A DNA stretch of 64,000 bases from Halorientalis sp. IM1011 (GTDB taxonomy: Archaea > Halobacteriota > Halobacteria > Halobacteriales > Haloarculaceae), in the NCBI RefSeq assembly GCF_001989615.1, contig NZ_CP019069.1, positions 56,564-120,563 on the forward strand, in the 5' to 3' direction. The translations under genes and the position numbers were made by a program. Each line of letters begins with the position of its first letter. Within the stretch, counting starts at the first letter, position 1. Below are positions 25,701-42,955 of the stretch, piece by piece. The notes beneath the pieces were generated by a model. It was not told the DNA's origin, made no database searches, and was given only the letters and a program-made list of their open reading frames with translations.

Positions 25701-26252
25701 TTAGAGATCGTAGCCCCAGGTCCGCAGTATCTCCTCGGCGTCGTCCAAGTGTGCCATCCCCGCCAGATAGATCGCCTCGCGTGCGTCCGTGCGCGAGAGG
25801 TCGACGCCGAGTCGGTCCTCGAGCGTCCGTTCGGCGTCGACGGCGCGGTCGTGAGTCTCCTGCTGGACGAACAGCTGGTGGACCTCCGGCCGCTCGTCTT
25901 TGACCCGATCCCGCCGCAAGACGAGCGGGAGTTCGTCACGGTCGAGTGGCCCGTCGTCCTCGGCCGCATCACTCCCCTCCTCTGGTTCCGTGCCGCCTTC
26001 GATGGCCGGGTCCGTCTCGGCATCGTCTTCTAGGGTCGCCGCTCGACTGTCCGAGGACTCACTGCGTTCGTCCTCGCTCTCCTCACTATCTCGCGGGTCG
26101 CTTCGCTCCCCGCTCGATTTCTCCGAGGACTCGCTTCGTTCGTCCTCGTCGTCCTCACGCTCACGGTTCGCTTCGCTCTCCGTTCGCGATTCCGAGGACT
26201 CGCTTCGCTCGTCCTCGCTATCCCCAAACGGATCAGACGCACCGGACTTCAT
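25701..26252 (-). CDS. acidic low-complexity protein coupled to ParA, 183 aa
   Basis: The N-terminal 90 residues are an acidic, disordered Ser/Glu/Asp/Arg stretch in which EDERSESS recurs three times. The C-terminal 85 residues are globular-looking (DELPLVLRRDRVKDERPEVHQ, AERTLEDRLGVDLSRTDAREAIYLAGM). Its ATG overlaps the parA stop by 4 bp (26249-26252), so it is the second gene of the partition operon. By position it should be the ParB-like or centromere-binding partner, although no ParB motif is visible. The HTH-like C-terminal half is the better candidate for DNA binding. Confidence 0.75.
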   Translation of the reverse strand: MKSGASDPFGDSEDERSESSESRTESEANREREDDEDERSESSEKSSGERSDPRDSEESEDERSESSDSRAATLEDDAETDPAIEGGTEPEEGSDAAEDDGPLDRDELPLVLRRDRVKDERPEVHQLFVQQETHDRAVDAERTLEDRLGVDLSRTDAREAIYLAGMAHLDDAEEILRTWGYDL

Positions 26253-27130
26253 GCGACAACCCCCTCTTCGTCTTCACGGAGATCCCCGGACGTGAGTTCA
26301 ACGTCGAACTGCGCCGAGACGAACCGCGCGAGTTCGTCGAACGCCGCCAGCGTCTCCCGCTCGCGCTCGGGCCGGTCGTTCGTCGCGACGTAGTCGAACG
26401 CGGTCGTCTGTGCGTCCCAGGCCCCGTTGAGCATCGCCTCGCGAACCGGGATCTGGACCGGCGAGACGGGATAGGACACCTCCGAGAGGGCCTCCTCGTA
26501 CTTGTCGCGCATCCGCGTCCGCCGCACTTTGTTCGGAACCACTGCGACCACGCCGACTTCCGTGTCGACGTCGGCCTCCAGATTCGAGACGGTGTCTTCC
26601 AGCCCGCGCAGCGACTGCTCGCCCTTCGGCGAGAGTTCGAGCGGGATCACGACGTTCGCAGTCGCAGAGACGGCATTGTAGACGTGTTGCCCGCCGGTCG
26701 CGGGCGGATCGACGATCACCACGTCGTAGGTCTCGGGCACACCGGCGTCGCGGATCACCCGGCGCAACTGCAACTCCTTGACGAACCGGCCGCCCATGTC
26801 CTGTTCCATCTCCTGGGCGCGCTGGAGGTTCGTCTCCAGACTGTCGAGCATGTTGTGGCTCGGCACCACGTCCAGTCCGTGGCTGGTCGTCCGGACCAGC
26901 TCCTCGAACTCGCCGTTGGGGCGGTCGATCAGATGCCGGACGATGTTGTCCACGTCGGGATCGGCGCGCTCCTCGTCGACGCCGAGGTGGTGACTCGCGC
27001 CGCCGTTCTGCGGATCGAGGTCGATCAGCAGCGTCCGCTGGCCGTGGCGCTGGTGGGCCGCCGCCAGATTGACCGCCAGCGCCGTCTTCCCGACGCCGCC
27101 CGCCTCACTCCACAGCGCGTACGAGATCAT
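26249..27130 (-). CDS. ParA-family partition ATPase, 293 aa
   Basis: Plasmid and chromosome segregation ATPase. The start MISYALWSEAGGVGKTALAVNLA at 27130 puts the deviant Walker A at residues 10-17; the signature Lys before GGVGKT is replaced by Ala, as in some haloarchaeal plasmid ParA proteins. Walker A' and B are RTLLIDLDPQNGGASHHLGV and YDVVIVDPPATGGQ. Upstream residues in the same frame cross the iteron array and are not protein-like. It is preceded by a 13-bp-periodic repeat array (27151-27367) and followed by the overlapping acidic partner. I infer a segregation module of plasmid type; its target may be this replicon or a resident element. Confidence 0.93.
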   Translation of the reverse strand: MISYALWSEAGGVGKTALAVNLAAAHQRHGQRTLLIDLDPQNGGASHHLGVDEERADPDVDNIVRHLIDRPNGEFEELVRTTSHGLDVVPSHNMLDSLETNLQRAQEMEQDMGGRFVKELQLRRVIRDAGVPETYDVVIVDPPATGGQHVYNAVSATANVVIPLELSPKGEQSLRGLEDTVSNLEADVDTEVGVVAVVPNKVRRTRMRDKYEEALSEVSYPVSPVQIPVREAMLNGAWDAQTTAFDYVATNDRPERERETLAAFDELARFVSAQFDVELTSGDLREDEEGVVA

Positions 27131-27150
27131 ATGATGCACTGCACACACTA

Positions 27151-27367
27151 ACTGATCATAAATATTCGTCAGACGTACTGACCAGACTGTCCAGTAATAC
27201 TGAACAATAATACTGGCCAGCATTACTGATCAGAAATACTGATTAGTATTATTGGCCAGAGCGACTGACCAACAACACCAATCAGAAGAACTGCCCAGGA
27301 ATAGTGGCCAGAAGAACCGACTCTCCGTTCGGATCAATAATACCGATCGGTATTACTGTCCAGTCAT
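27151..27367. repeat. array of about 16 imperfect 13-bp iterons (ACTGNYCAGNANT) upstream of parA
   Basis: Units follow each other every 13 bp from 27186 to 27367, for example ACTGTCCAGTAAT (27186), ACTGGCCAGCATT (27212), ACTGATCAGAAAT (27225), ACTGATTAGTATT (27238), ATTGGCCAGAGCG (27251), ACTGCCCAGGAAT (27290) and ACTGTCCAGTCAT (27355). Shorter or diverged units lie at 27151, 27164 and 27177. Each unit contains a CTGNNCAG near-palindrome. The region is AT-rich and contains no gene. It overlaps the parA promoter, and resembles iterated centromere or operator sites of plasmid partition systems. Function is inferred. Confidence 0.85.
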
Positions 27368-27391
27368 ACCAATAGTACGATTCGGGCCCCA

Positions 27392-28642
27392 CTAAAGGTA
27401 CTCGTCGAACACCGACGCCAGTTCCTCACGCACGAGGTCGGCCATCGCGTCCGCGCGCGCCTGGCGGCGCGTGCGCTCGTCGAGGTAGTTGCGTTCGGAC
27501 ACCGACGGATCGCTCGACCCCTGCGCGTCGGCTACGGCCGCCGTATCGGCCGTAATCGACGGCCGCTGGGCCCTGTACAGTCGATACCAGGTCCGCCGGC
27601 CCATCTTCGGTTTCGGTGGCTCGCCGTCGACGGTCACGTCGGCCCGTTCACCCAGATCCCGGAGCCAGCGGCGGGCAGTCTGGGTCGTGATCGGACCGCC
27701 TTCGGGCGACGGAAGCAGGTGGCCCGACCAGTCGCTCGCCTGCAGGCGGTCGATTCGGGCCCGCACGGCCTCAACGCCGACGAGAATCGCCACCGTGTTA
27801 CGGGTCCGCCGGGCGTTCTTCCGTTCGCCGGCCGCGAAGGTGACGTGTGGCGTGTCGCCGTCGGGCGGATCGATGACCAGCTGATCGACGTGCAACTGGC
27901 AGGCTTCGACGGGACGGAGGCCCCAACCGGCGAGAAAGAGGAGCAGGAACCGCTCGTCGGCATCCGCGACCGAGAGGAGAGCGTCCAGTTCGGGCGTCGA
28001 CAGCGCCGGGTGATCGTACACCGGCCGGCGGTCCCAGCCGAACCGCCGCGTGAGGTTCCGGGCAGGGTTGTACGTCGCTCGCCCCGTCTCTTCGAGGTAG
28101 GTGTACCAGTTTTTCACTGCCGACACGTACTTGCGCTTCGAGGCGAGCGTCCCGAGGCGGTCGTCGAGAACCCGGAAGACGGCCTTCGTGCGGGCGATCT
28201 CGTCGGGTTTCGCGCTCTCGTCCAGCAGCGGCGAGAGGAGATCAGCGCGGTCGTGAGTGTTGCTGTAAGTCGTAACGTACGTTCGAAGGCGCGCGCGACG
28301 CGAGTCGACGGTGGACTCGGCGCGGTCGCGGTCCCGGGTCAGTTCGGTGACGTACCCCTCCAGCGCGGCCGTCGTCGGCTCGTGCGCGAGTCCCCAGGGA
28401 TCGCCCTCGCCGCCGTCCGGTGGGAGACCGACCTCGTCGTAGAACTCGCCGGGCGAGAGCCCGTAATCGCGGCGCAGTCGCTCGACGAACCCCGAGTAGT
28501 TCGACTTCAACCACGCGTAGGGCGGCGTCTCGCGGTCGGGGTCGATCGACAGCTCCTCGTCGGCCGCCATCGCCGGGCCGATCTCCTCGCGATAGAACGA
28601 CTCGAACTCCGCCAGCGAATCGAAGGCGGCGTAGCTCGTCAT
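27392..28642 (-). CDS. tyrosine recombinase/integrase, 416 aa
   Basis: The start MTSYAAFDSLAEFESFYREE at 28642 gives a normal-length integrase. The N-terminal core-binding part is SYSNTH/RKYVSAVKNWYTYLEETGRATYNPARNL, and the catalytic domain holds the conserved Arg in FLLLFLAGWGLRPVEACQLH. The late GRRTWYRLYRAQ stands in the place of the His-x-x-Arg box. The nucleophile is probably the Tyr of VSERNYLDERTRR. It lies just upstream of the iteron array on the same strand as parA. This recombinase plus ParA arrangement is common on haloarchaeal plasmids, where it resolves multimers, so I infer a plasmid-derived maintenance module. Confidence 0.88.
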   Translation of the reverse strand: MTSYAAFDSLAEFESFYREEIGPAMAADEELSIDPDRETPPYAWLKSNYSGFVERLRRDYGLSPGEFYDEVGLPPDGGEGDPWGLAHEPTTAALEGYVTELTRDRDRAESTVDSRRARLRTYVTTYSNTHDRADLLSPLLDESAKPDEIARTKAVFRVLDDRLGTLASKRKYVSAVKNWYTYLEETGRATYNPARNLTRRFGWDRRPVYDHPALSTPELDALLSVADADERFLLLFLAGWGLRPVEACQLHVDQLVIDPPDGDTPHVTFAAGERKNARRTRNTVAILVGVEAVRARIDRLQASDWSGHLLPSPEGGPITTQTARRWLRDLGERADVTVDGEPPKPKMGRRTWYRLYRAQRPSITADTAAVADAQGSSDPSVSERNYLDERTRRQARADAMADLVREELASVFDEYL

Positions 28643-28863
28643 AGCTGTCTCGCGTCGTCCGCGTGGTTGGCTGTATCGGTCGATCTCACTATTTCCAACG
28701 ATCGTATCGAGAAACCTAACTGTTGTGGTGTCTTGGTGTCCAACGCAGACAACCATACAACACGCGTATGCCGCCAATTTATGATTGTCGGGAATAAACC
28801 GTATGTCGATATACCGTTTTCACGACGGGCGGCAGACGAGTAAACCACCGTAGGAGGGTTCCG

Positions 28864-29054: not shown

Positions 29055-29297
29055 CTACGTCTGTGGGGTCAGATCGTCGGGTCGTCCGGGGTCAGGTCGA
29101 GAGTCGAGGCGGTCGAATTCGGCCTCGATGGCTTCGATCCGCCGTTCGATGCGATGTTCGGCTTCGGTCATGCGGCGTGTGAGTTCTTCGAGTTCCTCGG
29201 TCGTGCGCTCCCGATCCGGAGACGCACAGCACCACCGGATATGGGTGTCGAGTCGGCGGTGTGAGAGGATCCTGTAACATTCTGGACAGCGTGGCAT
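29055..29297 (-). CDS. small zinc-finger and coiled-coil protein, 80 aa
   Basis: The N-terminus is a compact Cys/His motif (MPRCPECYRILSHRRLDTHI then WCC), followed by a charged coiled coil (TEELEELTRRMTEAEHRIERR). The protein at 42589-42825 has the same order (CPGCERPVPYDRLATHEQYC, then ERQIERLDRRISQSERRM), so the two are paralogs. They bracket the Gln-rich cluster. A DNA- or RNA-binding dimer is plausible, but no function is known. Confidence 0.7.
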   Translation of the reverse strand: MPRCPECYRILSHRRLDTHIRWCCASPDRERTTEELEELTRRMTEAEHRIERRIEAIEAEFDRLDSRPDPGRPDDLTPQT

Positions 29298-29448: not shown

Positions 29449-30384
29449 ATGAGTCACCAGGGAGACGATCCGAAGGGATCACGTGAGCGACAGCGCACCG
29501 GAACGCCGCCCAGCCAGCCACAGCAGACGAGCCAACAGCCGCCCCGACAGTCACAGCCGACACAGTGGCAGGGCCAGACCCAGGGGACACCCAGCCAGCA
29601 GCCCCAGCAGGAGTTCACACAGGGACCGGGGGGTGGCCAACAGATCGGAGGCGGCCGACAGTCGAGTGGGCAACAACCTAGCGAGCGACGATCGAGCGGC
29701 CAGCGGGGCGGAATGCCACCGGGCGGGACACAGCAGCCAGGTGGTGGCCAGCAGCCGCGTGGGCAGCCACAGGGTGGTCGCCAGCAGGGGGGACAGCCGC
29801 CACAGTCCGGTGGACAGATCGGAGCGCAGGGAGGCGGAGCGATGGGTGCCGGTCAGCCGGGAGGATTCACGCAGCAGGCGAGCGCGATGCAGTCGGCACC
29901 CCCACGAGCGACTGGCGGCGCGGCCGCACCGCCACGGGGTCGTCGGATGGCACCGGCGAGCGTCGAGGAAGTCATCAGCACCGACGTGATCACCGCCCGT
30001 CGTGACACACCGATCCCCACGGTCGTGTCGCTACTGCGCGAAAACGACGTGGGCTCCGTGATCGTCGTCGAAGACGACGGGGAGACGCCAATCGGCCTCC
30101 TCACGGACCGCAAGATCGCGCTCGCGATCGAGTCCGAACCCGATATCGCCGATCTGACCGCGGAGGAACTCGTCTCGACGGACCTGCTCACCGGACGGAC
30201 CGACATGACGGTGTTCGAGGCCCTCGATCAGCTGAAGGAGGCCGGCATTCGCCGGCTTCCCATCCTCGACGAGGACGGTTCACTCGTCGGTATCGTCACG
30301 CTCGACGACCTGCTCGTCCTGTTCGGGAGGAATCTCAACGACGCAGCCGAGATCATCGCCACCCAGACTATGAGCCACTCCTGA
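29449..30384 (+). CDS. Gln/Gly-rich disordered N-terminus fused to a CBS-domain pair, 311 aa
   Basis: Residues 1 to about 160 are dominated by Gln, Gly, Pro and Ser (QQPPRQSQPTQWQGQTQ, GGGQQPRGQPQGG) with no recognisable fold. Residues about 172-305 form two CBS motifs (ISTDVITARRDTPIPTVVSLL, DDGETPIGLLTDRKIAL and TDMTVFEALDQLKEAGIRRL, DGSLVGIVTLDDLLVL). CBS pairs bind adenine nucleotides and regulate or sense energy state. The Gln-rich tail is unlike typical acidic haloarchaeal proteins and resembles low-complexity segments that self-associate. It is the first of four Gln-rich proteins in the next 11 kb. Why the two parts are joined is unknown. Confidence 0.88.
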   Translation: MSHQGDDPKGSRERQRTGTPPSQPQQTSQQPPRQSQPTQWQGQTQGTPSQQPQQEFTQGPGGGQQIGGGRQSSGQQPSERRSSGQRGGMPPGGTQQPGGGQQPRGQPQGGRQQGGQPPQSGGQIGAQGGGAMGAGQPGGFTQQASAMQSAPPRATGGAAAPPRGRRMAPASVEEVISTDVITARRDTPIPTVVSLLRENDVGSVIVVEDDGETPIGLLTDRKIALAIESEPDIADLTAEELVSTDLLTGRTDMTVFEALDQLKEAGIRRLPILDEDGSLVGIVTLDDLLVLFGRNLNDAAEIIATQTMSHS

Positions 30385-30657
30385 CGGAGCCGGCGGCCTC
30401 ACGGCCACCGCCCTCGATGGTCCCCAGTCCATCGCCACGAGTCGCTCGTTCTGCCATTCGAATACCGGATAGTTGCAAACTCGATTCGTTTGCGTTCCAG
30501 TTCGAGTCACGTAGCTGCAAGGCGTTACAGTAGTACGTTCGTAATGCAGTCGAATAGGTGTCGGTCGATTGCCGAATCGGTGCCCGGAGCGCATGGTGTC
30601 GGTCTGCATCTGCAGGCAGCAGCCATTCCCCGACGAGGACCGTACGTCGGACGAACT
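30385..30657. other. short gene-free stretch
   Basis: No gene or clear signal is seen between the CBS gene and the PRC-barrel gene. Open frames here are antisense-type shadows. The promoter of the PRC-barrel gene presumably lies at the right end. Confidence 0.4.
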
Positions 30658-30897
30658 ATGGTAGAACTCACAGAGGAAGACGAGGGGAAGACGGTCGTTC
30701 GCGGCGACGAATCGGTCGGGCGGGTCGTCGAAATAGATCACGGCACGGCTTACATCGATCCGGATCCCGGAATCACCGACACGATCAAATCGAAACTCGG
30801 GTGGGGCGAACGGGAGAGCGAGGACACCTATCCCCTCCAGGAGGCCAGCATCGAATCGGTCACCGACGACGAGGTGCGGCTCGAAGGCGATCTGTAG
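30658..30897 (+). CDS. PRC-barrel-like small protein, 79 aa
   Basis: The sequence VELTEEDEGKTVVRGDESVGRVVEIDHGTAYIDPDPG shows the beta-barrel pattern of PRC domains, which in bacteria and archaea often occur in stress-linked and RNA- or membrane-associated proteins. The start at 30658 excludes an upstream unsupported extension. The protein at 33349-33663 shares the same core (LTETDEGKTVVDAAGNDIGIV), so they are paralogs separated by four genes. Its partner and reaction are unknown. Confidence 0.78.
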   Translation: MVELTEEDEGKTVVRGDESVGRVVEIDHGTAYIDPDPGITDTIKSKLGWGERESEDTYPLQEASIESVTDDEVRLEGDL

Positions 30898-31135
30898 CGG
30901 CGGGTAACCTTTTTCGCGGCGTCCGGACGAGTTCGAGCGACAGCCCTGTCGTGCACTCGGACCCGATGGATCCGTCGTCCGAGTATCGGGGTAGAAGAAA
31001 CCGATTACTCGATGTAACGCTCGATTACCGCCGGACGGCAACGGACCGATGGACCGGGCGGGTGGGGGTTTCGCGAGGGCGGCGTAAGTGGAGAAAAACT
31101 TTTGGTAGCGGTACTGTAACGGAACCACGAGACAG

Positions 31136-31510
31136 ATGAGAAATCCCAACGTGTCACAGCGTGACCACGCTACCGCTTCACAGTCTCTCGGTCACCGGAC
31201 ACAACCGTACGTCGTCCACCACGACTTCGACGGGCCGTCGGAGCTGACCACGACGCTCGCACACGCCATCGCCGACGTGACCGGTTTCGACGTGACCGAG
31301 ACCGGGTTCACCCTGAGTGACTACGTCGATCCGGCGGCGCTGGACCGCCTGTTCGCCCCCAAATCCGACGGAACACCGCGGACGAACGGCCACCTCGGGT
31401 TCACGATCTGGGACTGTCAGGTCACCGTCTACAGCACCGGACAGATCGTCGTCACGCAGACCCAGCCCCAGAACGGCGGCCGCAACCAGCAGAATCCGAC
31501 TCCTCGCTGA
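31136..31510 (+). CDS. HalOD1 output-domain protein, 124 aa
   Basis: Residues about 30-115 match the HalOD1 pattern: AHAIADVTGFDVTETGFTLSDYVDPAALDRLF then GHLGFTIWDCQVTVYSTGQIVV. The first 30 residues and the Gln/Asn-rich tail (TQPQNGGRNQQNP) are likely disordered. It is a second HalOD1 protein of the window (compare 4154-4396), here embedded in the Gln-rich cluster. No partner is known. Confidence 0.8.
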   Translation: MRNPNVSQRDHATASQSLGHRTQPYVVHHDFDGPSELTTTLAHAIADVTGFDVTETGFTLSDYVDPAALDRLFAPKSDGTPRTNGHLGFTIWDCQVTVYSTGQIVVTQTQPQNGGRNQQNPTPR

Positions 31511-31742
31511 ACCGTCGGTCGTCGGCTACGCTCGGTCTCCGATAGCGACTGCGACGGGGAACGCGCCGGCGGCGGACAACAACCGCTTACCGAGGGACGA
31601 AACCGACAACCGACGGCTATGGGGGTGAACGATAGCGGTTGTTTATAGCGACGCCAGCGGACGACACGCACGCACCGGTCGGAACGCGGTAGGCCACTCG
31701 CCTGCACGCACCGGACGGCAGACGCAGATCGCTTATCCATCT
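31511..31742. other. short gene-free stretch
   Basis: No gene or clear signal is seen. It presumably holds the promoter of the Gln-rich phasin-like gene that starts at 31743. Confidence 0.4.
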
Positions 31743-32561
31743 ATGAGCCAGCAACGACAGACCCAGCGAGAGACCGGCGAGTCGAGCGAGCAGACGGAAG
31801 AACTCCAGCGGACACTGATGGAGAACGGGCGCAAAGCCATGCGGCAGTTCGTCGAACTGCCGCTCCAGCAGAGCCTGCAGTTCCAGCGCAGCGCGGCGGA
31901 ACTGTTCGTGAACGGACTGGAGGCACAGAAGTGGGCCCAGGAGCGGGGGATCGAACTCACCAAGAACACGATGGGCAACTACCTCCAGACGCTCGACGAC
32001 GTCACCCAGAACGCCGAGGAGCTGGCCAAGACCGAGATGGCAGCGGGCCAGCAACAGGGCCAGGCGATACAGCAAGCCATGGGCCAGTTCCAGGGCGGCC
32101 GGGGAATGCAACGACAGCCGTCGGGCGGCCAACAGATGGGCGGTCAGCAGTCGACCCCACAGCGGTCCCCCGAGATGGGACAGCAGACTCCGACAGGCGG
32201 AGTCCAGCAACCGCAGGGGTCACAGCCCCAAGAGATCGGGCAACAGCAATCTCAGCAGCCGGGCGGCCAACAGCAACCACAGCCCCAGGAAATCAGGCAG
32301 CAGCCACAACCACAGGGGCTGGGTCAGCCACAGCCTCCGGAGATCGGGCAGCAGCGACCGCCGCAGATCCAGGGGCAACAACGGCCGCTCGGGCAGCAGC
32401 CGTCGCCACAGCAGCCAGCGACGGAGCAGTCGCCCACACCGCAGGAAGGCGAACGACAGACGAGGCCCGACCCCACGGAGGCCTCACAGCAGGGTTCCAG
32501 AGCCGAAGGGAAACAGGCGGACGGGCCGGCACAGAAAGAATCGCCGCCCGAGACGCAGTAA
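31743..32561 (+). CDS. helical phasin-like domain with Gln-rich tail, 272 aa
   Basis: Residues about 15-105 are helical and amphipathic (SEQTEELQRTLMENGRKAMR, QFVELPLQQSLQFQRSAAEL, NYLQTLDDVTQNAEELAKTEM), similar to phasin-like proteins that coat polyhydroxyalkanoate granules. Residues about 107-272 are Gln/Pro/Gly-rich with repeated short units (QPQEIGQQQSQQPGGQQ, PQPPEIGQQRPPQ). The tail is one of the four Gln-rich segments in this region. A surface-coating or condensate-forming role is inferred, not shown. A T6 run follows the stop. Confidence 0.75.
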   Translation: MSQQRQTQRETGESSEQTEELQRTLMENGRKAMRQFVELPLQQSLQFQRSAAELFVNGLEAQKWAQERGIELTKNTMGNYLQTLDDVTQNAEELAKTEMAAGQQQGQAIQQAMGQFQGGRGMQRQPSGGQQMGGQQSTPQRSPEMGQQTPTGGVQQPQGSQPQEIGQQQSQQPGGQQQPQPQEIRQQPQPQGLGQPQPPEIGQQRPPQIQGQQRPLGQQPSPQQPATEQSPTPQEGERQTRPDPTEASQQGSRAEGKQADGPAQKESPPETQ

Positions 32562-32578
32562 CGCCGACGAATCGGCCG

Positions 32579-32584
32579 TTTTTT
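32579..32584 (+). terminator. T6 run between convergent genes
   Basis: Six T residues lie 18 bp after the stop at 32561 and 14 bp before the stop of the convergent gene at 32598. Such oligo-T tracts end haloarchaeal transcripts. Confidence 0.5.
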
Positions 32585-32597
32585 CGGTCCCGCTCGA

Positions 32598-32921
32598 TCA
32601 GTCCTCGGTCCAGTACATCAGATCCTCCTTCGGAACGTCGCAGTTCGGGCACGTCGGAGGGAGGTCGCCGGCGATCTCGCCCATCTCGCCACAGCCGATA
32701 CAGCGCCACATCAGTTCGGCCTCGCCGAAGGCGTGGCCGGATCGGGCGTGTTCGATGCTGAGTGACTCCACTCCGTGTCGGACGGTCAGGTAGAGGCCGC
32801 CGTCCTCCATGCCGCGGACGGTGCCCACGGCGTGTCCGGCCTCCGTGTACAGCGTCTGTCCGAACGCGAGATCGACCTCGTCGGGATCCGTCGATTCTGG
32901 GGTTTCACCTCGGCCGCTCAT
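32598..32921 (-). CDS. zinc-ribbon (rubredoxin-like) protein, 107 aa
   Basis: The C-terminus has the zinc-ribbon pattern WRCIGCGEMGEIAGD followed by CPNC, as in rubredoxin-like or rubrerythrin-type metal centres. The N-terminal half is a small beta-rich PRC-like domain (EAGHAVGTVRGMEDGGLYLTV). No reaction is known. It is the first of three minus-strand genes (32598-33663) that may form an operon with the DUF5789 and PRC-barrel genes. Confidence 0.72.
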   Translation of the reverse strand: MSGRGETPESTDPDEVDLAFGQTLYTEAGHAVGTVRGMEDGGLYLTVRHGVESLSIEHARSGHAFGEAELMWRCIGCGEMGEIAGDLPPTCPNCDVPKEDLMYWTED

Positions 32922-32974
32922 ACCCCGGATTCGGGACGGACCGGCAAAAAGTGTCTGTCGGGTCGGCCGTCATC

Positions 32975-33262
32975 TTAGAACGACTGCTCTTCGTGATCGA
33001 GTTCGGTGTCGTTGGTCGCGCGGTCGCTGTATGATTTTCGGCCGACGGCCTCCTCACCGATCATGTTGAGGACGCTCTGTTGGACCTCGTCGGCGGACTC
33101 GTAGGTCTGGTCGTCCTGTGTGTCGAGTACCGACTGGAGTTCGACCGTGCCGTTCGCGTGCTCGATCTCGCGGTCACCGTGGGCCGCGAGCAAGTCCTCG
33201 TTCGTCAGCGGGTACGATTCGGCGTCGAGTTCGTCGTCGAGACCGCCGAAATCGAGACCCAT
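32975..33262 (-). CDS. DUF5789 family protein, 95 aa
   Basis: Start MGLDFGGLDDELDAESYP at 33262 is the usual beginning of this haloarchaeal family, and the conserved SVLNMIGEEAVGRKSYSDRA segment is present near the C-terminus. No biochemical role is known. It is flanked on the same strand by the zinc-ribbon and PRC-barrel genes, with short gaps. Confidence 0.82.
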   Translation of the reverse strand: MGLDFGGLDDELDAESYPLTNEDLLAAHGDREIEHANGTVELQSVLDTQDDQTYESADEVQQSVLNMIGEEAVGRKSYSDRATNDTELDHEEQSF

Positions 33263-33348
33263 ATCGCGGTCTTCTGTCACTGTGCTCACCGACAGCCCGT
33301 ACCACGCCGACGGACAAAAGGGGTCGGGCCGCAACTCCGACGGGAGCG

Positions 33349-33663
33349 TCAGGTCGGTTCACCCTCCGACTCGAGTTGTTTCCCCGTCTCGGGTTCGTCC
33401 TTCGTCCTGGGGTCGTCCTTCGCCCGGAGTTCGACGTCGGTCCCGGTCGTCCGCTCGATGCGGTCCGTGTCGATCCGATAGGCGTCCTCGTCGTACCCCT
33501 CCCACTTCAGCGTCGTCTTGACCCGGTCGACCAGCGACGGATCGGGTTTGACGTAGATCCCCTCGGCAGTCACGTCCGTCACGATCCCGATATCGTTACC
33601 TGCCGCGTCGACGACCGTCTTCCCCTCGTCGGTCTCGGTGAGCGTCGGCCGTTCCTTTGCCAT
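33349..33663 (-). CDS. PRC-barrel-like protein with acidic tail, 104 aa
   Basis: Residues 1-70 show the same beta-barrel pattern as the protein at 30658-30897 (LTETDEGKTVVDAAGNDIGIV, YVKPDPSLVDRVKTTLKWEGY). The C-terminal 30 residues are charged and low in complexity. It is the promoter-proximal gene of a possible minus-strand operon down to 32598. No function is established. Confidence 0.77.
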   Translation of the reverse strand: MAKERPTLTETDEGKTVVDAAGNDIGIVTDVTAEGIYVKPDPSLVDRVKTTLKWEGYDEDAYRIDTDRIERTTGTDVELRAKDDPRTKDEPETGKQLESEGEPT

Positions 33664-33826
33664 GGTACCACTGGTCACGGTACGCGGGGAGCAGCCATAA
33701 CTCTCCGGGGCGGGAGCGTCGGGCCGGAACGCCGGCGGGTTCGGCCAGCCGGCTGATTTGAGTGACTTGGGCCTGCAGGCTCGGTGTTGATCCGGGTTGG
33801 CGGTGTATCGGCCACCGGTGAGACCC

Positions 33827-34651
33827 ATGAGTTTCCACGCGCGAACGGTCCTGCAGGTCGAGGTACCGGACATGATCTCGTCGACGATCGCCGACGTGGT
33901 CGCGTTCCTCCCCCGACTGATCGGTGCGTTACTGATCCTGCTGATCGGCTGGGCGATCGGGATCGCGATCGGCAAGGTCGTCAGCAAGGTGACCGATAGC
34001 GCCGAACTCGACCAGCTGGTACTCGATACGCCGCTCGGGAGGATGCTGGGGGGAACGGAAAAGGCCGTCTCGCGGGCGTTCGGGGCCACGGCGAAGTGGT
34101 TCGTCGTCGCCCTGTCCGTCCTGGCGGCCGCGGACGTGCTGGCGGTCACGTTGCTCTCGGAGTGGATCCAGACCGCGGTGTCGTACCTCCCCGCGTTCAT
34201 CGGCGGGCTGGCGGTCATCGTCGCCGGGTTCATCGTCGCGGACTTCATCGGCGACGCGATGATGCGAACCCGGGCGGCGACCCAGACGGCGTACACGTCC
34301 TGGTTCGCCACGGGCACCCGGATGTTCCTGTATTTCACCGCGGTCGTGATCGGCCTCGACACGATGGGGATCGACGTGAGTATCCTGTTCGTGTTCGCCC
34401 GTGCGCTGGCCTACGGGCTCGGCGCGGCGATCGCCATCGGCCTGGGCGTCGCGTTCGGGTGGGGCGGCCACCGCTACGTCGCCAACAACATCGACCGCTG
34501 GATGGGACAGGCCTCCAACGGAGCACCGCGCCCGTCCGGCTCACCCGAAGCCGACGGGGGAGCGCGAGACCGGCCCGCTCCCGGCAATCGGGAGCCACCC
34601 GTACCAGACGACCGGGACCCGACCGCGTCGGACGACCGAACGGAGGACTGA
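33827..34651 (+). CDS. MscS-related membrane protein with conserved TM helices, 274 aa
   Basis: Four or more hydrophobic helices follow a short N-terminus (IADVVAFLPRLIGALLILLIG, TAKWFVVALSVLAAADVLAVT, YLPAFIGGLAVIVAGFIVADF and MFLYFTAVVIGLDTM). The pattern matches the family annotated as mechanosensitive ion channel or conserved TM helix. The usual MscS beta domain is not clearly present, so channel activity is uncertain. A Pro/Asp-rich acidic tail follows residue 225. The start at 33827 was chosen because an ATG at 33872 would remove the amphipathic N-terminal segment seen in relatives. It may help resist hypo-osmotic shock. Confidence 0.78.
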   Translation: MSFHARTVLQVEVPDMISSTIADVVAFLPRLIGALLILLIGWAIGIAIGKVVSKVTDSAELDQLVLDTPLGRMLGGTEKAVSRAFGATAKWFVVALSVLAAADVLAVTLLSEWIQTAVSYLPAFIGGLAVIVAGFIVADFIGDAMMRTRAATQTAYTSWFATGTRMFLYFTAVVIGLDTMGIDVSILFVFARALAYGLGAAIAIGLGVAFGWGGHRYVANNIDRWMGQASNGAPRPSGSPEADGGARDRPAPGNREPPVPDDRDPTASDDRTED

Positions 34652-34837
34652 CAACGGAACTCGACAGCCTGCGGGCACCAGCTGGCTGATACGCTGGCTC
34701 GGACCAGCCGGCGTTCGGGCCGTGTCCCCTGTTTCGCCGAGCTTTCCCACCTGTCAACGCGGGCTCAGGAGCGGGTACTGCCGCGTTACCACACGTAATC
34801 AGTGTATAATAAAACGTCCGTCCGTTCTGGACTTCCC

Positions 34838-35509
34838 ATGGGCACGATCGTGGAGGCACAGGTCCCGGCGTCGGAGTTCGCGCTCGGTGACACGGTAGCA
34901 TCGGTTCCGGACGTCTCCTTCGAGCCCGTCCGAACAGTCTCGGCCGGGACGGAGCGACCGTTACCGTTCCTGTGGGCCGCAGCCCCGGAGTTCGACCGCC
35001 TCGACGAGGCGCTGCGTGCCGACGAGAGCACGGCCGACGTACACCGACTGGTCCGTGACGGGAACCACGTCCTCTACGCCGTCCGCTGGCAGTCCCGCGT
35101 CCGCGCGCTCGTCCAGCTCGTCGCCGTCGAGGACGGCACGCTGCTCGACGCCCGACTCCACGACGACACGTGGAAGCTGCGCGTCCTCTTCCCGGAGAAG
35201 GCGGCGATGTCGTCGTTCTACGACACCTGCCGGAACTACGGCCTCGACATCGACGTGAACCGGGTGAACGGCCTCGAAAGCGTCGTCCGGCACGGCGGAA
35301 CGCGACTCTCCCCCGAGCAGTACGAGGCACTCTCCGAGGCGCTGGAAGCTGACTACTACGGCGTCCCGCGGGGTTCGACACTGGTCGAACTGTCCGACCG
35401 CCTCGACGTCTCCCACCAGGCCGTCTCCGAGCGACTCCGGCGGGCCCACCAGTCCCTCATCGAGTCGTCGCTCCACGACGGCCTCACGCCGGACGAGCCA
35501 CACCCCTGA
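34838..35509 (+). CDS. bacterio-opsin-activator-type HTH regulator, 223 aa
   Basis: Residues 1-150 contain a beta-rich sensor-like region (MGTIVEAQVPASEFALGD, VRDGNHVLYAVRWQSRVRALVQL). The C-terminal HTH of the Bat type is seen as LSPEQYEALSEALEADYYGVPRGSTL and SDRLDVSHQAVSERLRRAHQ. Such regulators are abundant in haloarchaea; their effectors are seldom known. It stands in the same strand order after the MscS-like gene. It could control the neighbouring stress-type genes, which is inference. Confidence 0.87.
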   Translation: MGTIVEAQVPASEFALGDTVASVPDVSFEPVRTVSAGTERPLPFLWAAAPEFDRLDEALRADESTADVHRLVRDGNHVLYAVRWQSRVRALVQLVAVEDGTLLDARLHDDTWKLRVLFPEKAAMSSFYDTCRNYGLDIDVNRVNGLESVVRHGGTRLSPEQYEALSEALEADYYGVPRGSTLVELSDRLDVSHQAVSERLRRAHQSLIESSLHDGLTPDEPHP

Positions 35510-35620
35510 CCGGGATCGCCCCCGCCGGGCGACGTCGGAAATCCGGCAGTATTCCGCTGGTCCCGGTAGCGACGGGACCGTGACGGGGCGGCCTCGGCAG
35601 GTACTTCCCAACAGTCCGGC

Positions 35621-36472
35621 TCACCCGAGCCGGTCGCGTCCCTCGGTACCTTCGTAGGCAAGTCCGGCGTTCGGGGGGCGACGGCCGGCGAGGACGACGT
35701 TCGTGACGCCCCCGAGCAGGAAGATCAGCGATGCGAAGTAGAGCCAGGTGATGAGCAGGAGGACGCCGCCGAGGACGCCGTACAGTTCCGCGGTCGAGGA
35801 GAGGGAGATGTACAGTTGAAAGAGCAGTTGCAGGAGCGTCCAGCCGACCACGGTGACGATCACACCGGGCACCGCTTCCAGGGGCTCGATGTCCACGTCC
35901 GGGAAGACGTAGTACACCGGGTAGAAGACGGCCGACAGCGCCGCGATCAGAAAGAGGACGTTGAGAACGCCCAGGAACGGAAGCTGTGGGACCATCGCGA
36001 AGATCAGGCCGGCGAACAACATCGCGAGCGTCGCGCCGGCCATCGCCGAGATCACGATCAGCGCGTCGGTCACCTGCCCCCGGAGCGGGCGGCGGCCCTC
36101 CGTGTCGTACAGCTGTGCGAATGCGGTATCGAGCCGACGGAACAGCGTGGTCGCACCCCACAGCAGCGCCACGAGCCCGAGTACGGAGAGTCCGAGTCGA
36201 CCGCTGGCGCGGGTCAACGCGTCGTAGACCACGTTCTGTCCGGCCGGGGAGAGGTACTGTCGGGTCAGCGACAGTACGACGGCGACGAGGCGATCACCGC
36301 CGAGCCACGAGAGGGCAATTACGATCAGTAACAGGAGCGGGAGCAGGGAGACGAACGCGGAGTACGCCAGACTCCCGGCCATGAAGGGCACGTCACGCTC
36401 GCGAAACTCGGTGACGATCACGCGGACGACGGTGGTCGCCTCGCCGACCCGATCGGGAAGCGCGTTACTCAT
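35621..36472 (-). CDS. YihY/BrkB family membrane protein, 283 aa
   Basis: Six hydrophobic segments are visible, beginning FMAGSLAYSAFVSLLPLLLLIVI and ending ITWLYFASLIFLLGGVTNVV. The AYSAFVSLLPLLLL and YYVFPDVDIEP motifs are typical of the YihY/BrkB family, whose substrate is not firmly known. The start MSNALPDRVG at 36472 was preferred over an in-frame codon 66 bp further upstream, since the extra residues look non-conserved. It faces away from the FAD/Rieske gene at 36655. Confidence 0.85.
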   Translation of the reverse strand: MSNALPDRVGEATTVVRVIVTEFRERDVPFMAGSLAYSAFVSLLPLLLLIVIALSWLGGDRLVAVVLSLTRQYLSPAGQNVVYDALTRASGRLGLSVLGLVALLWGATTLFRRLDTAFAQLYDTEGRRPLRGQVTDALIVISAMAGATLAMLFAGLIFAMVPQLPFLGVLNVLFLIAALSAVFYPVYYVFPDVDIEPLEAVPGVIVTVVGWTLLQLLFQLYISLSSTAELYGVLGGVLLLITWLYFASLIFLLGGVTNVVLAGRRPPNAGLAYEGTEGRDRLG

Positions 36473-36654
36473 CGCGCACACCGCCGTCGGCGTCGTGACT
36501 CGGGCCACATCCGTGCTAGCACGTGGGATGGCAGGCACTTATCAGTCGCGGGGCATCGCCCGGTCGATAGCTCGGTTCCTTGCAGTGGCTGGCCGCGGGT
36601 TTTCCCGTCCGGACGTGGAGCGATCAGTCGCTGCTCCGCGCAGCCGTGATTCCC

Positions 36655-38274
36655 ATGCACCCCGAGGAGACCCGACCGAAAGGCGGCGACACGACCGATA
36701 ACGGCGACGGCGTCACCGACGGCGGCGACGGCCACCGTTCGCTGTGGCTGGCCGAGGAGTCCGAGACCCAGTACGGCCCGCTGACCGACGACCTGACCGT
36801 CGACACCGTCGTCGTCGGCGGGGGAATCGTCGGTATCACGACGGCCTACCACCTCGCGACCGCCGGGCAGTCCGTAGCGCTGCTCGAACGCGACCGCCTG
36901 CTCGGCGGGACGACCGGCCACACGACGGCGAAACTCACCTCGCTGCACGGCCTGCGGTACGCCGACCTGCTCGAACGCCGGGGAGAGACCCGGGCCAGGG
37001 AGTACGCCGAGGCGAACGAGGCCGCCATCGACCGCGTCGAGCGACTGGTCGACGACCTCGGCGTCGACTGTGAGTTCGAACGCACCGAGGCGTACACCTA
37101 CGTGACGGACCGGGATCGGGTGTCCCGTGTACGGGAGGAAGTCCGGGCCGCGGAGCGACTCGACCTCCCCGCGTCGCTCGCCGAGACGACCGATCTCCCG
37201 TTCGAGATCGCGGGCGCGGTCCGGTTCGACTCGCAGGCGCGGTTCGATCCCGCGACCTACCTGCAGGAGCTCGCGGCCGCGACGGCAGATTCGGGTGGCC
37301 GGCTCTTCGAGCGGACGACGGCGACGGGCGTCTCGGGCGGGTCGCCCTGTCGCGTCGAGACCGACCGGGGGACGATCACGGCCGACGCCGTCGCGGTCGC
37401 GACGAACTTCCCGATCACGGACCACGCGGGGTACTTCGCACGGATGACGCCCAAACGGTCGTACGTCCTCGCCGTTCGCCTGCGGGACGAACCGCCGGAG
37501 GGGCTGTACTACGATCCGACGGAGCCGTACTTCTCCGTCCGGCCGCGGCCGGGCGACCGCGACTCGCTGGCGCTGATCGGCGGGCAGAACCACCGCACTG
37601 GACACGGCGGCAGTACCGCGGCCCGCTACCGCCGACTCGAATCCCAGGCGCGCGACCGGTTCGACGTCGAGGCCGTCGAGTACCGCTGGTCGACCCAGGA
37701 CTTCCGGACGTTCGACGACGTGCCGTTCGTGGGGACACTCCCGGTGTTCGACGAGGGCGTGTACGTCGCGACGGGGTTCGGTGGCTGGGGGATGACCAAC
37801 GGCACCGCGGCGGCACGGCAGCTCGCGGACCGCATCCTCGGTCGCGATCCGGAGTGGAGCCGCGTGTTCCGACCGACGCGAGTCACGCTCGGCGTCGGAC
37901 CGTTCGTCTCCCACAACGCTCAGGCCGCTCGGCATCTCCTCTCCGGGCGGTTCGGGCAACGGACGACGCCGCCCGCGGCCGCGCTCGATCCCGGCGAGGC
38001 GGGCGTCTTCCGCCGCGACGGGGAACAGGTCGCCGCCTACCGCGACGCGGACGGGCGACTGTACACCCGGTCGGCGGTGTGTCCCCACCTGGGCTGTCTC
38101 GTCGAGTGGAACGACGGCGAGCGCTCCTGGGACTGCCCGTGTCACGGCTCCCGGTTCGACGTGGACGGGACCGTCCTCGACGCGCCCGCGGTCCAGGAAC
38201 TGGAACCGGTCGACGTTCGACCCACCCGGACGGAGCGCGACCGGCGACCGTCGGCCCCGTCGGAGGAAGATTGA
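36655..38274 (+). CDS. FAD-dependent (DAO-type) oxidoreductase with C-terminal Rieske domain, 539 aa
   Basis: The N-terminal FAD domain has VDTVVVGGGIVGITTAYHLA (the GxGxxG dinucleotide motif), LLGGTTGHTTAKLTSLHGL and the late YVATGFGGWGMTNGTAAA typical of the glycine oxidase-type family. The last 80 residues form a Rieske [2Fe-2S] domain (CPHLGCLVEWN, CPCHGSRFD), with the Cys-His pairs intact. The fusion is a known architecture, but the substrate of this branch is not established. The start MHPEETRP at 36655 excludes an Arg-rich upstream run. It may act in a redox or detoxification step; no partner gene adjoins it. Confidence 0.9.
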   Translation: MHPEETRPKGGDTTDNGDGVTDGGDGHRSLWLAEESETQYGPLTDDLTVDTVVVGGGIVGITTAYHLATAGQSVALLERDRLLGGTTGHTTAKLTSLHGLRYADLLERRGETRAREYAEANEAAIDRVERLVDDLGVDCEFERTEAYTYVTDRDRVSRVREEVRAAERLDLPASLAETTDLPFEIAGAVRFDSQARFDPATYLQELAAATADSGGRLFERTTATGVSGGSPCRVETDRGTITADAVAVATNFPITDHAGYFARMTPKRSYVLAVRLRDEPPEGLYYDPTEPYFSVRPRPGDRDSLALIGGQNHRTGHGGSTAARYRRLESQARDRFDVEAVEYRWSTQDFRTFDDVPFVGTLPVFDEGVYVATGFGGWGMTNGTAAARQLADRILGRDPEWSRVFRPTRVTLGVGPFVSHNAQAARHLLSGRFGQRTTPPAAALDPGEAGVFRRDGEQVAAYRDADGRLYTRSAVCPHLGCLVEWNDGERSWDCPCHGSRFDVDGTVLDAPAVQELEPVDVRPTRTERDRRPSAPSEED

Positions 38275-38346
38275 GGAGGCGGGCCGCCGGCCGTCACGGA
38301 GGCCCGGACTGCGACTGAGATACTGGTATCGGGTCGGCGACGGACC

Positions 38347-39219
38347 TCAGCGTTGCTGCTGGAAGCTCCCGCCGGTCTGCTCCTGTTGACCCTGTTGCTG
38401 GCCTCGCTGTTTGTACTGGAGGCCGCCCCGTGACTGCTCGGATTCCTGCTGGCCCTGCTGGGGCTGCTGTTGCTGACGCTGCTGGGGTCGTTGCTGTTGT
38501 TGATCCTGCTGGGGCTGCTGTTGCTGGCCCTGCTGGGGCCGTTGCTGGCTCATCGGGGACTGTTGCTGACCTCTCTGTGGCTGTTGTTGCCCCATCCGAG
38601 ATTGCTGTCCCTGCTGGCGGCCCTGAATCTGTGGCTGTTGCTGTTGCCCCATCTGAGACGGCTGTTGTCGACCCATCCGGGACTGTTGTCCCTGCTGTGG
38701 CTGCTGTTGTCTCATCTGGGGTCGCTGTTGACTCATCTGTGGCTGCTGTTGGCCTATCTGTGACTGTTGCCGGCCGATCTGTGGTTGCTGTTCCCGCTGG
38801 AACTGTTGCTGGCCCCCTCGCTGGCGGGACTGGGCCTGCTGTCCCTGCTGGGTGCCCTGTCCCCGGATTTCGCCGCCGAACTGCTCGCTCTGGCCCCGCT
38901 GTGGCATCTGCTGGGACTGTTTTTTCTGGCCGGACTCCTGCTGGGACTGCTGTGGTTGCATGCCAGCCTGGGACTGCTGAGAGTGCTGTCCCTGTGCCAG
39001 CCCGATCTGCTGTCGAAACTGTCGTTTGCCCTGCTCGCCCTGCTGGTCGTGCTGCTGGGGTTGTTGCTCGATCTGCCCCTGCTGTCGTCCCTGTTGGCGC
39101 TGCTGTTGCTGGCGTCCCTGCTGGCCGCCCTGTTGCTGTCTCTGCCCTTTCTGGCCCTGATTCTGCTGGCCCTGGCCCTGCTGATACTGTTCGGTCTGGT
39201 ATGGATTTTGCTGGTTCAT
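38347..39219 (-). CDS. extremely Gln-rich low-complexity protein, 290 aa
   Basis: By my count 140 of 290 residues are Gln (about 48 percent), with Gly, Arg, Ser, Pro and Met filling the rest, and only about a dozen acidic residues. That is the reverse of the acidic haloarchaeal norm. Recurrent units include RQQPQM-, GQQQPQ- and MGQQQ-type segments (SRMGQQQPQRGQQQ). No globular domain or membrane segment is visible, so it is expected to be disordered and possibly prion-like or condensate-forming. The other strand also stays open because of the repetitive codons, but encodes a Leu/Val-rich sequence without features. Homologs would decide. I judge this frame real because three neighbours carry similar Gln-rich tails. 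Confidence 0.72.
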   Translation of the reverse strand: MNQQNPYQTEQYQQGQGQQNQGQKGQRQQQGGQQGRQQQQRQQGRQQGQIEQQPQQHDQQGEQGKRQFRQQIGLAQGQHSQQSQAGMQPQQSQQESGQKKQSQQMPQRGQSEQFGGEIRGQGTQQGQQAQSRQRGGQQQFQREQQPQIGRQQSQIGQQQPQMSQQRPQMRQQQPQQGQQSRMGRQQPSQMGQQQQPQIQGRQQGQQSRMGQQQPQRGQQQSPMSQQRPQQGQQQQPQQDQQQQRPQQRQQQQPQQGQQESEQSRGGLQYKQRGQQQGQQEQTGGSFQQQR

Positions 39220-39405
39220 GGGTTCGTCTGTGGCTGCTGTCAGCTGTGTATCGGCTCCCGTTCCGGGTGAGGAAGCGGTCCCGGGACGGCGTTACCGGAG
39301 TCCGTCGCTACCCCGTCGGTGGCTGCCACCGCGCCGCCATTAACCGTTTCGTCGGTTCCGGGTTCTAAGGCGACGTTACTCCGTTTCGTCGGGAGTTGGG
39401 GCCGG

Positions 39406-39921
39406 CTAGAACCCCTGTGTCATGCCGCCGGAGGCGCCACCGGACTGCATTCCGCCGCCTCCCATTCCGCCACCACCCATTCCGCCGCCGGCTCCCTGCG
39501 TCGTGCCCATCCCCTGCTGGATCTCCTGCATCGTCTGCCCGAGAACCTGCGCGCACTCCTGACAGTGGCTGCGGTCGTGCTGCCCGCACTCCTTCGCACA
39601 GGCCTGGGCGGCCTGCTGGAAGGTCTGAAGGATCGATCCGGCGAACCGAGAGTTCTTCGGGAGCAGAGCGATGGCCGCCTCGCCGATCTCCGTCACGTCC
39701 TCACAGAGCCGGATGCACTCCACCATCTGCGGATTGCTCTCCTGAATGCACTGGTCCGCACACCAGCCACACACGTCGATAGCGCGTGCGATGCTTTCGG
39801 CGAGTTGCTGGGGCTGGCCGGGCTGTTGCTGGGAGCCGCCCTGGGACATCCAGCCCTGTGTCTGTCCGTACTGCTGTCCGCCCTGTGTGCCTGTCGACTG
39901 CTGGAACTGGCCCTGGGTCAT
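39406..39921 (-). CDS. Csp/DUF326-type four-helix copper-binding protein with Gln-rich N-terminus, 171 aa
   Basis: The start MTQGQFQQSTGTQGG at 39921 begins a Gln/Gly-rich segment of about 45 residues. Next come Cys-rich helices of the DUF326 type: AIDVCGWCADQCIQESNP, VECIRLCEDV, QACAKECGQHDRSHCQECAQ. Such four-helix bundles store Cu(I) through Cys residues. A Gly/Met-rich C-terminal tail follows (GGGMGGGGMGGGGM), which could also bind copper. A role in copper storage is inferred from family resemblance. It is the fourth Gln-rich protein in this cluster. Confidence 0.82.
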   Translation of the reverse strand: MTQGQFQQSTGTQGGQQYGQTQGWMSQGGSQQQPGQPQQLAESIARAIDVCGWCADQCIQESNPQMVECIRLCEDVTEIGEAAIALLPKNSRFAGSILQTFQQAAQACAKECGQHDRSHCQECAQVLGQTMQEIQQGMGTTQGAGGGMGGGGMGGGGMQSGGASGGMTQGF

Positions 39922-40010: not shown

Positions 40011-40370
40011 TCACACCCCCGGAACGCCGGCCGCGTCGAACGTCGTCACCCCGAGGGCAGCGAGGATGGCGACGACCACGAGCGAGGCGATCCAGGCGAT
40101 CAGTGCGATCCCGATGGCCTTGAGCCAGCCGCCGGGGTACCGGTAGTTGATGACGGCGATGTACGCGATCAGCGCGACGAGTGGGCCGAGCAGGGGAATC
40201 CAGCCGATAAACAGCGCGACGAATGTCCAGACGATCGCCCCGATCAGTGCCGTGACGAGCGCGTAGGTGTAGTCGTCGGTGTTGGTGATCACCCGCGCCC
40301 CGACGTAGATGCCGAGCGCGCCGATGAGGAGGCTCACCACGAACACGATGATGGAGTCGATGACGGCCAT
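40011..40370 (-). CDS. four-helix membrane protein, 119 aa
   Basis: Three to four hydrophobic helices (IDSIIVFVVSLLIGALGIYVG, ALVTALIGAIVWTFVALFIGW, LLGPLVALIAYIAVIN, IGIALIAWIASLVVVAIL) with a conserved ending FDAAGVPGV. The protein at 61329-61687 is a clear paralog (VDSLVVFLVSLLIGALGIHVG ... FDAFGVPG). No function is known. The ATG at 40370 is the first that keeps the conserved N-terminus. Confidence 0.75.
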   Translation of the reverse strand: MAVIDSIIVFVVSLLIGALGIYVGARVITNTDDYTYALVTALIGAIVWTFVALFIGWIPLLGPLVALIAYIAVINYRYPGGWLKAIGIALIAWIASLVVVAILAALGVTTFDAAGVPGV

Positions 40371-42588: not shown

Positions 42589-42825
42589 TCACCGCTGGGG
42601 GCGGGAGCGGCCGTCGGCACCGTCGTCGGTTCGGGAGCGATTGACGTCGAGTTCGGCTTCGAGCGCGCGGAGTCGGCGGTACATCCGTCGTTCGGACTGA
42701 GATATCCGGCGGTCGAGACGCTCGATTTGCCGTTCCGTATCGTTGTCCAGTGCCGTGCAGTACTGCTCGTGCGTCGCGAGTCGGTCGTACGGGACCGGCC
42801 GCTCACAGCCAGGGCAGGTCGGCAT
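42589..42825 (-). CDS. small zinc-finger and coiled-coil protein, 78 aa
   Basis: The start MPTCPGCERPVPYDRLATHE at 42825 begins a Cys/Cys/His/Cys motif, followed by a charged coiled coil (DNDTERQIERLDRRISQSER). It parallels the protein at 29055-29297 in order and length. The pair lie on either side of the Gln-rich cluster. No function is known. Confidence 0.68.
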   Translation of the reverse strand: MPTCPGCERPVPYDRLATHEQYCTALDNDTERQIERLDRRISQSERRMYRRLRALEAELDVNRSRTDDGADGRSRPQR

Positions 42826-42955
42826 GTGTCGTCCGTAGTACAACCGCTCACGGCTTCACTCTTTGGTCGCCTGCGGGAGGTGTTCCGGAACGGAGGCTGG
42901 CGGAGTCGGGAGACGGCGGCGTCAGACCTTTCGCCGTGAATAACACAGGAGTTGT

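Follow-up and report, generated by a model that had tools for sequence, protein, structure and literature searches.

We report a cluster of four genes for glutamine-rich (Gln-rich) proteins, packed within 10.5 kb of a 120.6-kb replicon of the haloarchaeon Halorientalis sp. IM1011 (NZ_CP019069.1, contig C3), and propose that the island to which they belong most likely builds a cytoplasmic scaffold-client assembly whose tails bind one another, a reading to which we give an even chance. The window, that is, the whole stretch of DNA analyzed, comprises 64,000 nucleotides (bases 56,564-120,563 of the 120,563-bp replicon), and coordinates below count from its first base. A shared low-complexity region on unrelated proteins is present together with a scaffold-like member: Gln tails sit on phasin-like, CBS, copper-bundle and, in relatives, Dps folds. 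The four genes had been reported in an earlier note made from the sequence alone, and all were confirmed where it had placed them:

29449..30384, plus strand, CBS-Q: Gln/Gly-rich N-terminal tail (~155 residues) and a CBS domain pair (Pfam CBS, 3.6e-24)
31743..32561, plus strand, PhasQ: phasin-like helical domain (residues ~17-104) and a Gln-rich tail
38347..39219, minus strand, pure-Q: nearly pure Gln-rich protein, proposed scaffold
39406..39921, minus strand, Csp-Q: copper-storage-like four-helix bundle with a Gln-rich N-terminal tail and a Gly-rich C-terminal tail ending in QGF

The Gln tails and pure-Q of the window contain 26-48% Gln (Q) and 2-8% Asp or Glu (D/E), with Q runs never longer than 4. 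Residues 1-155 of CBS-Q are 26% Q, 23% G and 3% D/E, the last 167 residues of PhasQ 32% Q and 8% D/E, and the whole of pure-Q 48% Q and 4% D/E; the first 45 residues of Csp-Q are 36% Q, and its last 31 are 55% G and just 10% Q. Taking 9 Q within 30 residues as the threshold for a Gln-rich gene, it was reached by none of the 398 genes sampled outside the cluster (303 from 280 kb of the chromosome, 57 from the rest of the same replicon and 38 from 40 kb of the other plasmid). Among 206 genes from 11 loci that surround tail-less copper proteins in other haloarchaea, none reached it either; it was passed by 33 of 247 genes in 11 related (PhasQ) loci, and by 5 of 131 in six loci with tail-less phasin relatives, four of these five being phasin or regulator-like genes in pha operons. 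Within the window, 3 of the 67 genes in the gene-caller set lay above the threshold; the automatic caller skipped the copper-storage gene, and the Csp-Q open reading frame (ORF) taken alone passes with a score of 12. When relatives were compared in four pairs, the Gln frame diverged most at its third codon position, so that this frame, and not the opposite strand, looks coding. On two Halobaculum plasmids (L208:14962-15882 and L212:14823-15599) the database annotates the gene opposite to the Gln-rich frame; third-position divergence favors the Gln frame there as well.

Relatives of the phasin-like domain occur in 108 of 391 haloarchaeal genomes at E 0.001. Ten genomes match it at E 5e-12 or better, and an eleventh, also Gln-tailed, more weakly (G265, 1e-7); many of the other matches stand beside one to PhaE and resemble ordinary phasins of pha operons (phasin tails were inspected in the best 30 loci). 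These 11 PhasQ genomes, together with Halorientalis persicus and Haloarcula rara, provided 13 loci in stretches of 18-62 kb, so the partner counts given here are lower bounds. PhasQ was the bait, and its own presence in all 13 therefore says nothing. HalOD1, on the other hand, lies no more than ~3 kb from PhasQ in all 13, and directly upstream on the same strand in 11. The remaining partners are DUF5789 (12 loci), CBS-Q (11), pure-Q (10, counted as an ORF with >35% Q and no other match), DUF7130 (10), Csp-Q (9), an FAD/Rieske protein (8), a 119-residue membrane protein (8) and BrkB (6). Dps is found in 6 of the 13, with 8 or more Q in 30 in five of the six. The one named genome locus with PhasQ that a scan of genome contigs recovered belongs to Halorientalis persicus; its island has the same order but misses three genes, the MscS-like, the FAD/Rieske and the second PRC-like one. 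One genome has a Gln-rich protein and Csp-Q elsewhere on the PhasQ contig (G265), and another has CBS-Q on a different contig (G381). PhasQ is carried by plasmids in Haloarcula marina (NZ_CP100405.1, NZ_CP100408.1) and Haloarcula rara (CP119786.1), and by contigs of 3.7 Mb (G351) and 2.2 Mb (G384).

Co-occurrence in other haloarchaea had been named by the earlier note as the check to make, and its absence as half of a refutation; the Gln-tailed members do strongly co-occur, both in the 13 loci and across the 391 genomes, so that this half failed. Csp matches were obtained in 201 genomes, and 13 of the best 30 are Gln-tailed (at least 7 Q in 30), and CBS matches in 179 at E 1e-20, with a Gln tail (8 or more) in 17 of the best 30. 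PhasQ (11 genomes) and CBS-Q (17) have 10 genomes in common against 0.48 expected; PhasQ and Csp-Q (13) share 8, and CBS-Q and Csp-Q share 10. Within the own family (85 genomes) the same three pairings share 9, 7 and 7 (P 2e-10 to 2e-7), and outside it CBS-Q (7) and Csp-Q (5) share 3 (P 7e-5).

A version of the island also occurs beyond the family. A plasmid search with the CBS part returned 17 records, six of which were examined with two more from the Csp search, besides those of Haloarcula marina and Haloarcula rara. In Halobaculum sp. XH14, Halobaculum salinum and Halobaculum halophilum (Haloferacaceae), CBS carries Gln-rich leaders with 14-18 Q in 30. All three plasmids share a membrane protein of the 119-residue type, DUF7130 and the BAT regulator; HalOD1 and MscS-like genes are present in two, a Gln/Gly/Arg-rich ORF in two, and Halobaculum halophilum encodes a Dps that bears a Gln-rich tail at either end. 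These three plasmid islands yielded no phasin-like gene. Two further genomes (G026, G311), outside the set in which the phasin domain or PhaE was matched, have CBS-Q leaders whose first residues are those of the leaders of XH14 and Halobaculum halophilum. Beside tail-less CBS (three plasmids) or tail-less Csp (two plasmids) no Gln-rich ORF was found within 14 kb on each side, or ~7 kb on one side of one of them.

The folded parts of two clients differ from their tail-less relatives as well. Csp-Q matches Csp3 (5fig) at E 3.3e-6 and, like the Csp copper storage proteins, is by sequence a Cys-rich four-helix bundle, with 9 Cys in its core; it differs in its Gln-rich tails, in a median of 9 versus 13 Cys and in a less acidic core. 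It stays under the curated cut-off of TIGR04401 (25.5 bits vs 100), and a Pfam scan of the window protein gave no PF03860, a family that its relatives do carry. The Dps-Q of one relative (G281) is above the cut-off of the bacterial Dps model and below that of the haloarchaeal DpsA model, and differs from bacterial Dps in its Gln-rich tails. The earlier description of the neighboring genes as families of bacterial stress islands is right only in part: this Dps-Q is of the bacterial type, whereas HalOD1 was found in a single one of 14 named control genomes, that of Haloferax volcanii. Acidic residues make up 0.167 of Csp-Q cores (n=15) versus 0.247 in tail-less relatives (n=15; P 4e-6), and 0.153 of Dps-Q cores (n=6) versus 0.240 (n=26, one row of which, L011, reads the G085 island gene in truncated form; P 2e-4). 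Fewer acidic residues would be expected of cores residing inside an assembly rather than alone in brine.

Mechanistically, pure-Q would act as the scaffold and the Gln tails as a shared tag, co-assembling through Gln side-chain contacts. Pure-Q has no family match; its C-terminal stretch GGLQYKQR has similar counterparts in relatives, most of which, when aligned, show like C-terminal ends, and of 21 Csp-Q and pure-Q proteins 13 have F or Y as their last residue. The physical rationale, as we infer it, is that charge contacts are screened in molar KCl and neutral Gln contacts are not; salt may even strengthen the latter, as ionic strength does for the domain of NFAT5. According to a preprint (PMC10602047), the Gln-rich, charge-depleted domain of NFAT5 forms condensates with rising ionic strength, and replacing all 109 Gln by Ala leaves no puncta and targets that are not activated. 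What the two share is a lengthy disordered segment, rich in Gln and depleted of charge, within a protein that faces increasing ionic strength; NFAT5, however, is a single animal transcription factor, whereas here an archaeal gene island with several unrelated folded clients is known from sequence. Under stress or starvation, the clients would gather copper storage (Csp), iron and peroxide protection (Dps, in relatives) and nucleotide sensing (CBS) in one body, PhasQ would tie this body to polyester granules or another hydrophobic surface, and the BAT/HTH regulator would control the island. Stated in full, the proposal is of an often plasmid-borne, membraneless haloarchaeal organelle built by a Gln-tail code, with a pure-Q scaffold and copper, iron, sensor and granule-binding Gln-tailed clients, in which molar salt silences charge contacts and not Gln contacts; we hold this fuller version tentatively, at somewhat less than an even chance.

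The relation of PhasQ to polyhydroxyalkanoate (PHA) polyester granules deserves separate consideration. Its domain is related to the gene that takes the place of PhaP in the own pha operon (E 1.5e-7, 32% over residues 16-92), a comparison made with that gene and not with the PhaP of Haloferax mediterranei itself. The own operon is ordered AbrB-like (below cut-off), phasin-like, PhaE, PhaC (L050). For Haloferax mediterranei, published work describes PhaP as the main granule phasin and PhaR as an AbrB-domain regulator of the phaRP operon. PhasQ shares with such phasins a strongly amphipathic helical stretch (helix moment up to 0.68), but it has zero matches to the Pfam and NCBIfam phasin families, lies outside the pha operon and carries a long Gln-rich tail. 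The own PhaE is chromosomal (C1:1638147) and the island is on C3, so PhasQ is not encoded with the PHA synthase, and a Pfam scan found no PHA synthase domain among the scanned genes of the own island. AlphaFold2 modeled the phasin-like domain with a pLDDT of 56 and a pTM of 0.26, and a PDB search with PhasQ returned nothing below E 0.5. A search of limited sensitivity among 5.8 billion proteins found three relatives for the PhasQ of G300 (Haloarculaceae) and eight for that of the window. Elsewhere on the own chromosome (L049:9901-11004), a phasin-like gene with 12% Q and 26% D/E adjoins a tail-less CBS gene, with a similar arrangement in G167 (L055); this pair may be the chromosomal equivalent, free of disordered tails, of PhasQ and CBS-Q.

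These properties suggest an alternative in which PhasQ coats PHA granules and its Gln tail, together with pure-Q, forms a brush recruiting Csp-Q, Dps-Q and CBS-Q to the granule surface, with no separate condensate. The kinship with the PhaP-position gene and the amphipathic helix favor it, as does the PHA synthase subunit, which occurs in 217 of the 391 genomes and in 11 of 11 PhasQ genomes. Nevertheless, PhaE is present in nearly all genomes of the own family anyway, the Halobaculum islands have CBS-Q, accompanied by Dps-Q in one and by a Gln-rich protein in two of them, and the two genomes with matching leaders (G026, G311) fall outside the phasin-domain and PhaE set; we consider a decorated granule unlikely. 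Since only 4 of the 7 CBS-Q genomes without PhasQ have the synthase subunit (P 0.043 against 11 of 11), there is weak support for PhasQ as a granule adaptor joined to a core that can do without PHA. Marginally better placed, though still improbable, is the view that the island merely collects co-located stress genes, each Gln tail being a private linker or solubility tail with no shared assembly. The genes use both strands, and upstream blocks are conserved before the six genes examined (window, G085 and Halorientalis persicus), so they look separately transcribed; moreover, in non-PhasQ genomes Csp-Q stands without a second Gln gene nearby. What co-location leaves unexplained is the strong co-occurrence of Gln-tailed forms over unrelated folds, beside a nearly all-tail protein, and the lack of any Gln-rich ORF in the tail-less CBS and Csp plasmid stretches.

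Neutral growth of low-complexity sequence by repeat slippage on plasmids would account for the frequent location on small replicons and for tails that differ in length and align poorly. The ratio of nonsynonymous to synonymous substitution (dN/dS) is nevertheless 0.26-0.40 in six comparisons of long tails or pure-Q, each spanning at least 135 codons, 0.04-0.30 in seven domain comparisons and 0.18 in one of three short tails; purifying selection acts on the long tails. The share of CAA among the Gln codons of six Gln-rich genes is 12-21% versus a 9% background, so these genes are not plain CAG repeats. Of nine pure-Q proteins (37-53% Q), eight reach no more than 3 or 4 consecutive Q and one reaches 6, and runs are shorter than in shuffled sequences for seven of the nine (P<0.03). 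With pure-Q ends that resemble one another and the presence of the island on the 3.7- and 2.2-Mb contigs, slippage becomes very improbable, and plain repeat slippage was rejected on the long-tail dN/dS, the CAA enrichment and the capped Q runs. We judge equally remote a prion-like or amyloid switch in which the tails make heritable fibers. Gln-rich composition does resemble prion-like domains; however, the short runs of those eight pure-Q proteins are interrupted by G, P and S, and the folded clients are storage and sensor domains. Amyloid was discarded as a first reading, the nine pure-Q proteins having no long uninterrupted Gln runs. The surface-coating system suggested by the earlier note was not supported and was also rejected: by a simple hydropathy and RR test, which is not a signal-peptide program, five Gln-bearing window proteins and one Dps-Q lack a twin-arginine pair among their first 35 residues, and in none of them does the mean hydropathy over 19 residues exceed 1.34, compared with maxima of 2.57-2.89 in three island membrane proteins. 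The note's other suggestion, self-assembly by the Gln-rich segments, is in our view the best reading of the tails.

Several observations weigh against the scaffold-client assembly. Two of the three short tails have dN/dS values of 0.73 and 0.93, two of the nine pure-Q proteins lack significant avoidance of Q runs, and among five client tails just one displays it. Tails were inspected in the best 30 loci per search, and the P values of the pairings ignore relatedness within families. Six Csp loci outside the PhasQ genomes have no second Gln-rich gene within 15-20 kb, and G384 has neither CBS-Q nor Csp-Q near PhasQ. Almost every genome of the own family has the PHA synthase subunit, and its presence in all 11 PhasQ genomes therefore says little by itself. 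CBS-Q cores show no loss of acidic residues relative to tail-less ones (0.197, n=10, vs 0.185, n=11; P 0.11), and for the phasin core the comparison had a single tail-less row. Finally, the Csp tree (22 rows) is compatible with a single origin of the Gln tail, and the de-acidification of Csp may therefore be one event.

Between and beside the four Gln-rich genes, the island of the window holds the following genes:

30658..30897, plus strand, PRC-barrel-like small protein (ORF with homologs; name from the earlier note, zero matches in a Pfam scan)
31136..31510, plus strand, HalOD1 domain protein with a short Q-containing end (Pfam HalOD1, 3.7e-20)
32598..32921, minus strand, DUF7130 protein (Pfam, 1.2e-39), with a weak rubredoxin-like match besides
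32975..33262, minus strand, DUF5789 protein (Pfam, 1.9e-19)
33349..33663, minus strand, second PRC-barrel-like protein (homologs; weak matches to DUF7130 and PRC below cut-off)
33872..34651, plus strand, MscS-like conserved transmembrane helix protein (Pfam PF05552, 2.8e-16)
34838..35509, plus strand, BAT/HTH_10 transcription regulator (Pfam HTH_10, 1.6e-11; BAT, 5.2e-11)
35621..36472, minus strand, BrkB/YihY family membrane protein (Pfam, 7.7e-39)
36655..38274, plus strand, FAD-dependent oxidoreductase fused to a Rieske domain (Pfam DAO, 4.5e-54; Rieske, 1.6e-12)
40011..40370, minus strand, 119-residue membrane protein, recurrent in the island (8 of 13 PhasQ loci and three Halobaculum plasmids)

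The FAD/Rieske, BrkB, MscS-like, PRC and DUF genes recur in varying subsets, and FAD/Rieske and BrkB relatives stand together in one locus without Gln genes (L101). In the window no operator shared between island genes was found beyond words of 9-10 bases. An inverted repeat, AACCG-N6-CGGTT, lies upstream of pure-Q at 39342-39357, the only such repeat found in the window, within a block common to the window, G085 and Halorientalis persicus; it is a possible regulator site.

Small Cys-containing proteins flank the island, one per side, at 29055-29297 and 42589-42843 (both minus strand). They are mutually related, each ~40% to the Halorientalis persicus counterpart of the other, they occupy the same places in that species, and they may mark the island edges. 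Just upstream of the island (25701-28777) are genes for an acidic protein, a ParA-like ATPase and an integrase-like protein, and ParA relatives adjoin the island in G085 and G265 too. Farther away, a pair at 56108-56725 and 56897-58834 resembles, as judged by eye from translated starts, two genes next to the Haloarcula marina island that are annotated as RdfA and archaeal SMC-related, and a similar pair is found near the island in L045.

The literature searched, which left most subscription journals outside, gave no account of this gene set, in agreement with the earlier note, which knew of no described haloarchaeal system of this composition. Each of the families involved is already known; for the whole island as a system, and for a Gln tail shared by unrelated folds, that literature describes no counterpart. 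In encapsulins and bacterial microcompartments, unrelated cargo shares a short targeting tag encoded near the shell. Here, in contrast, the tag is a long Gln-rich tail and the proposed scaffold is itself tail-like, and no shell family is among the Pfam matches of the scanned island genes.

The low-complexity regions of halobacteria are reported to be acidic, with 34% D/E over 22 regions (PMC6821194). A conserved island doing the opposite on several unrelated folds would amount to a new form of archaeal cell organization, and would reveal how proteins without a fixed structure can come together in molar salt, a setting in which contacts between charges should fail. The island supplies named plasmids and genes for direct tests of condensation at very high KCl.

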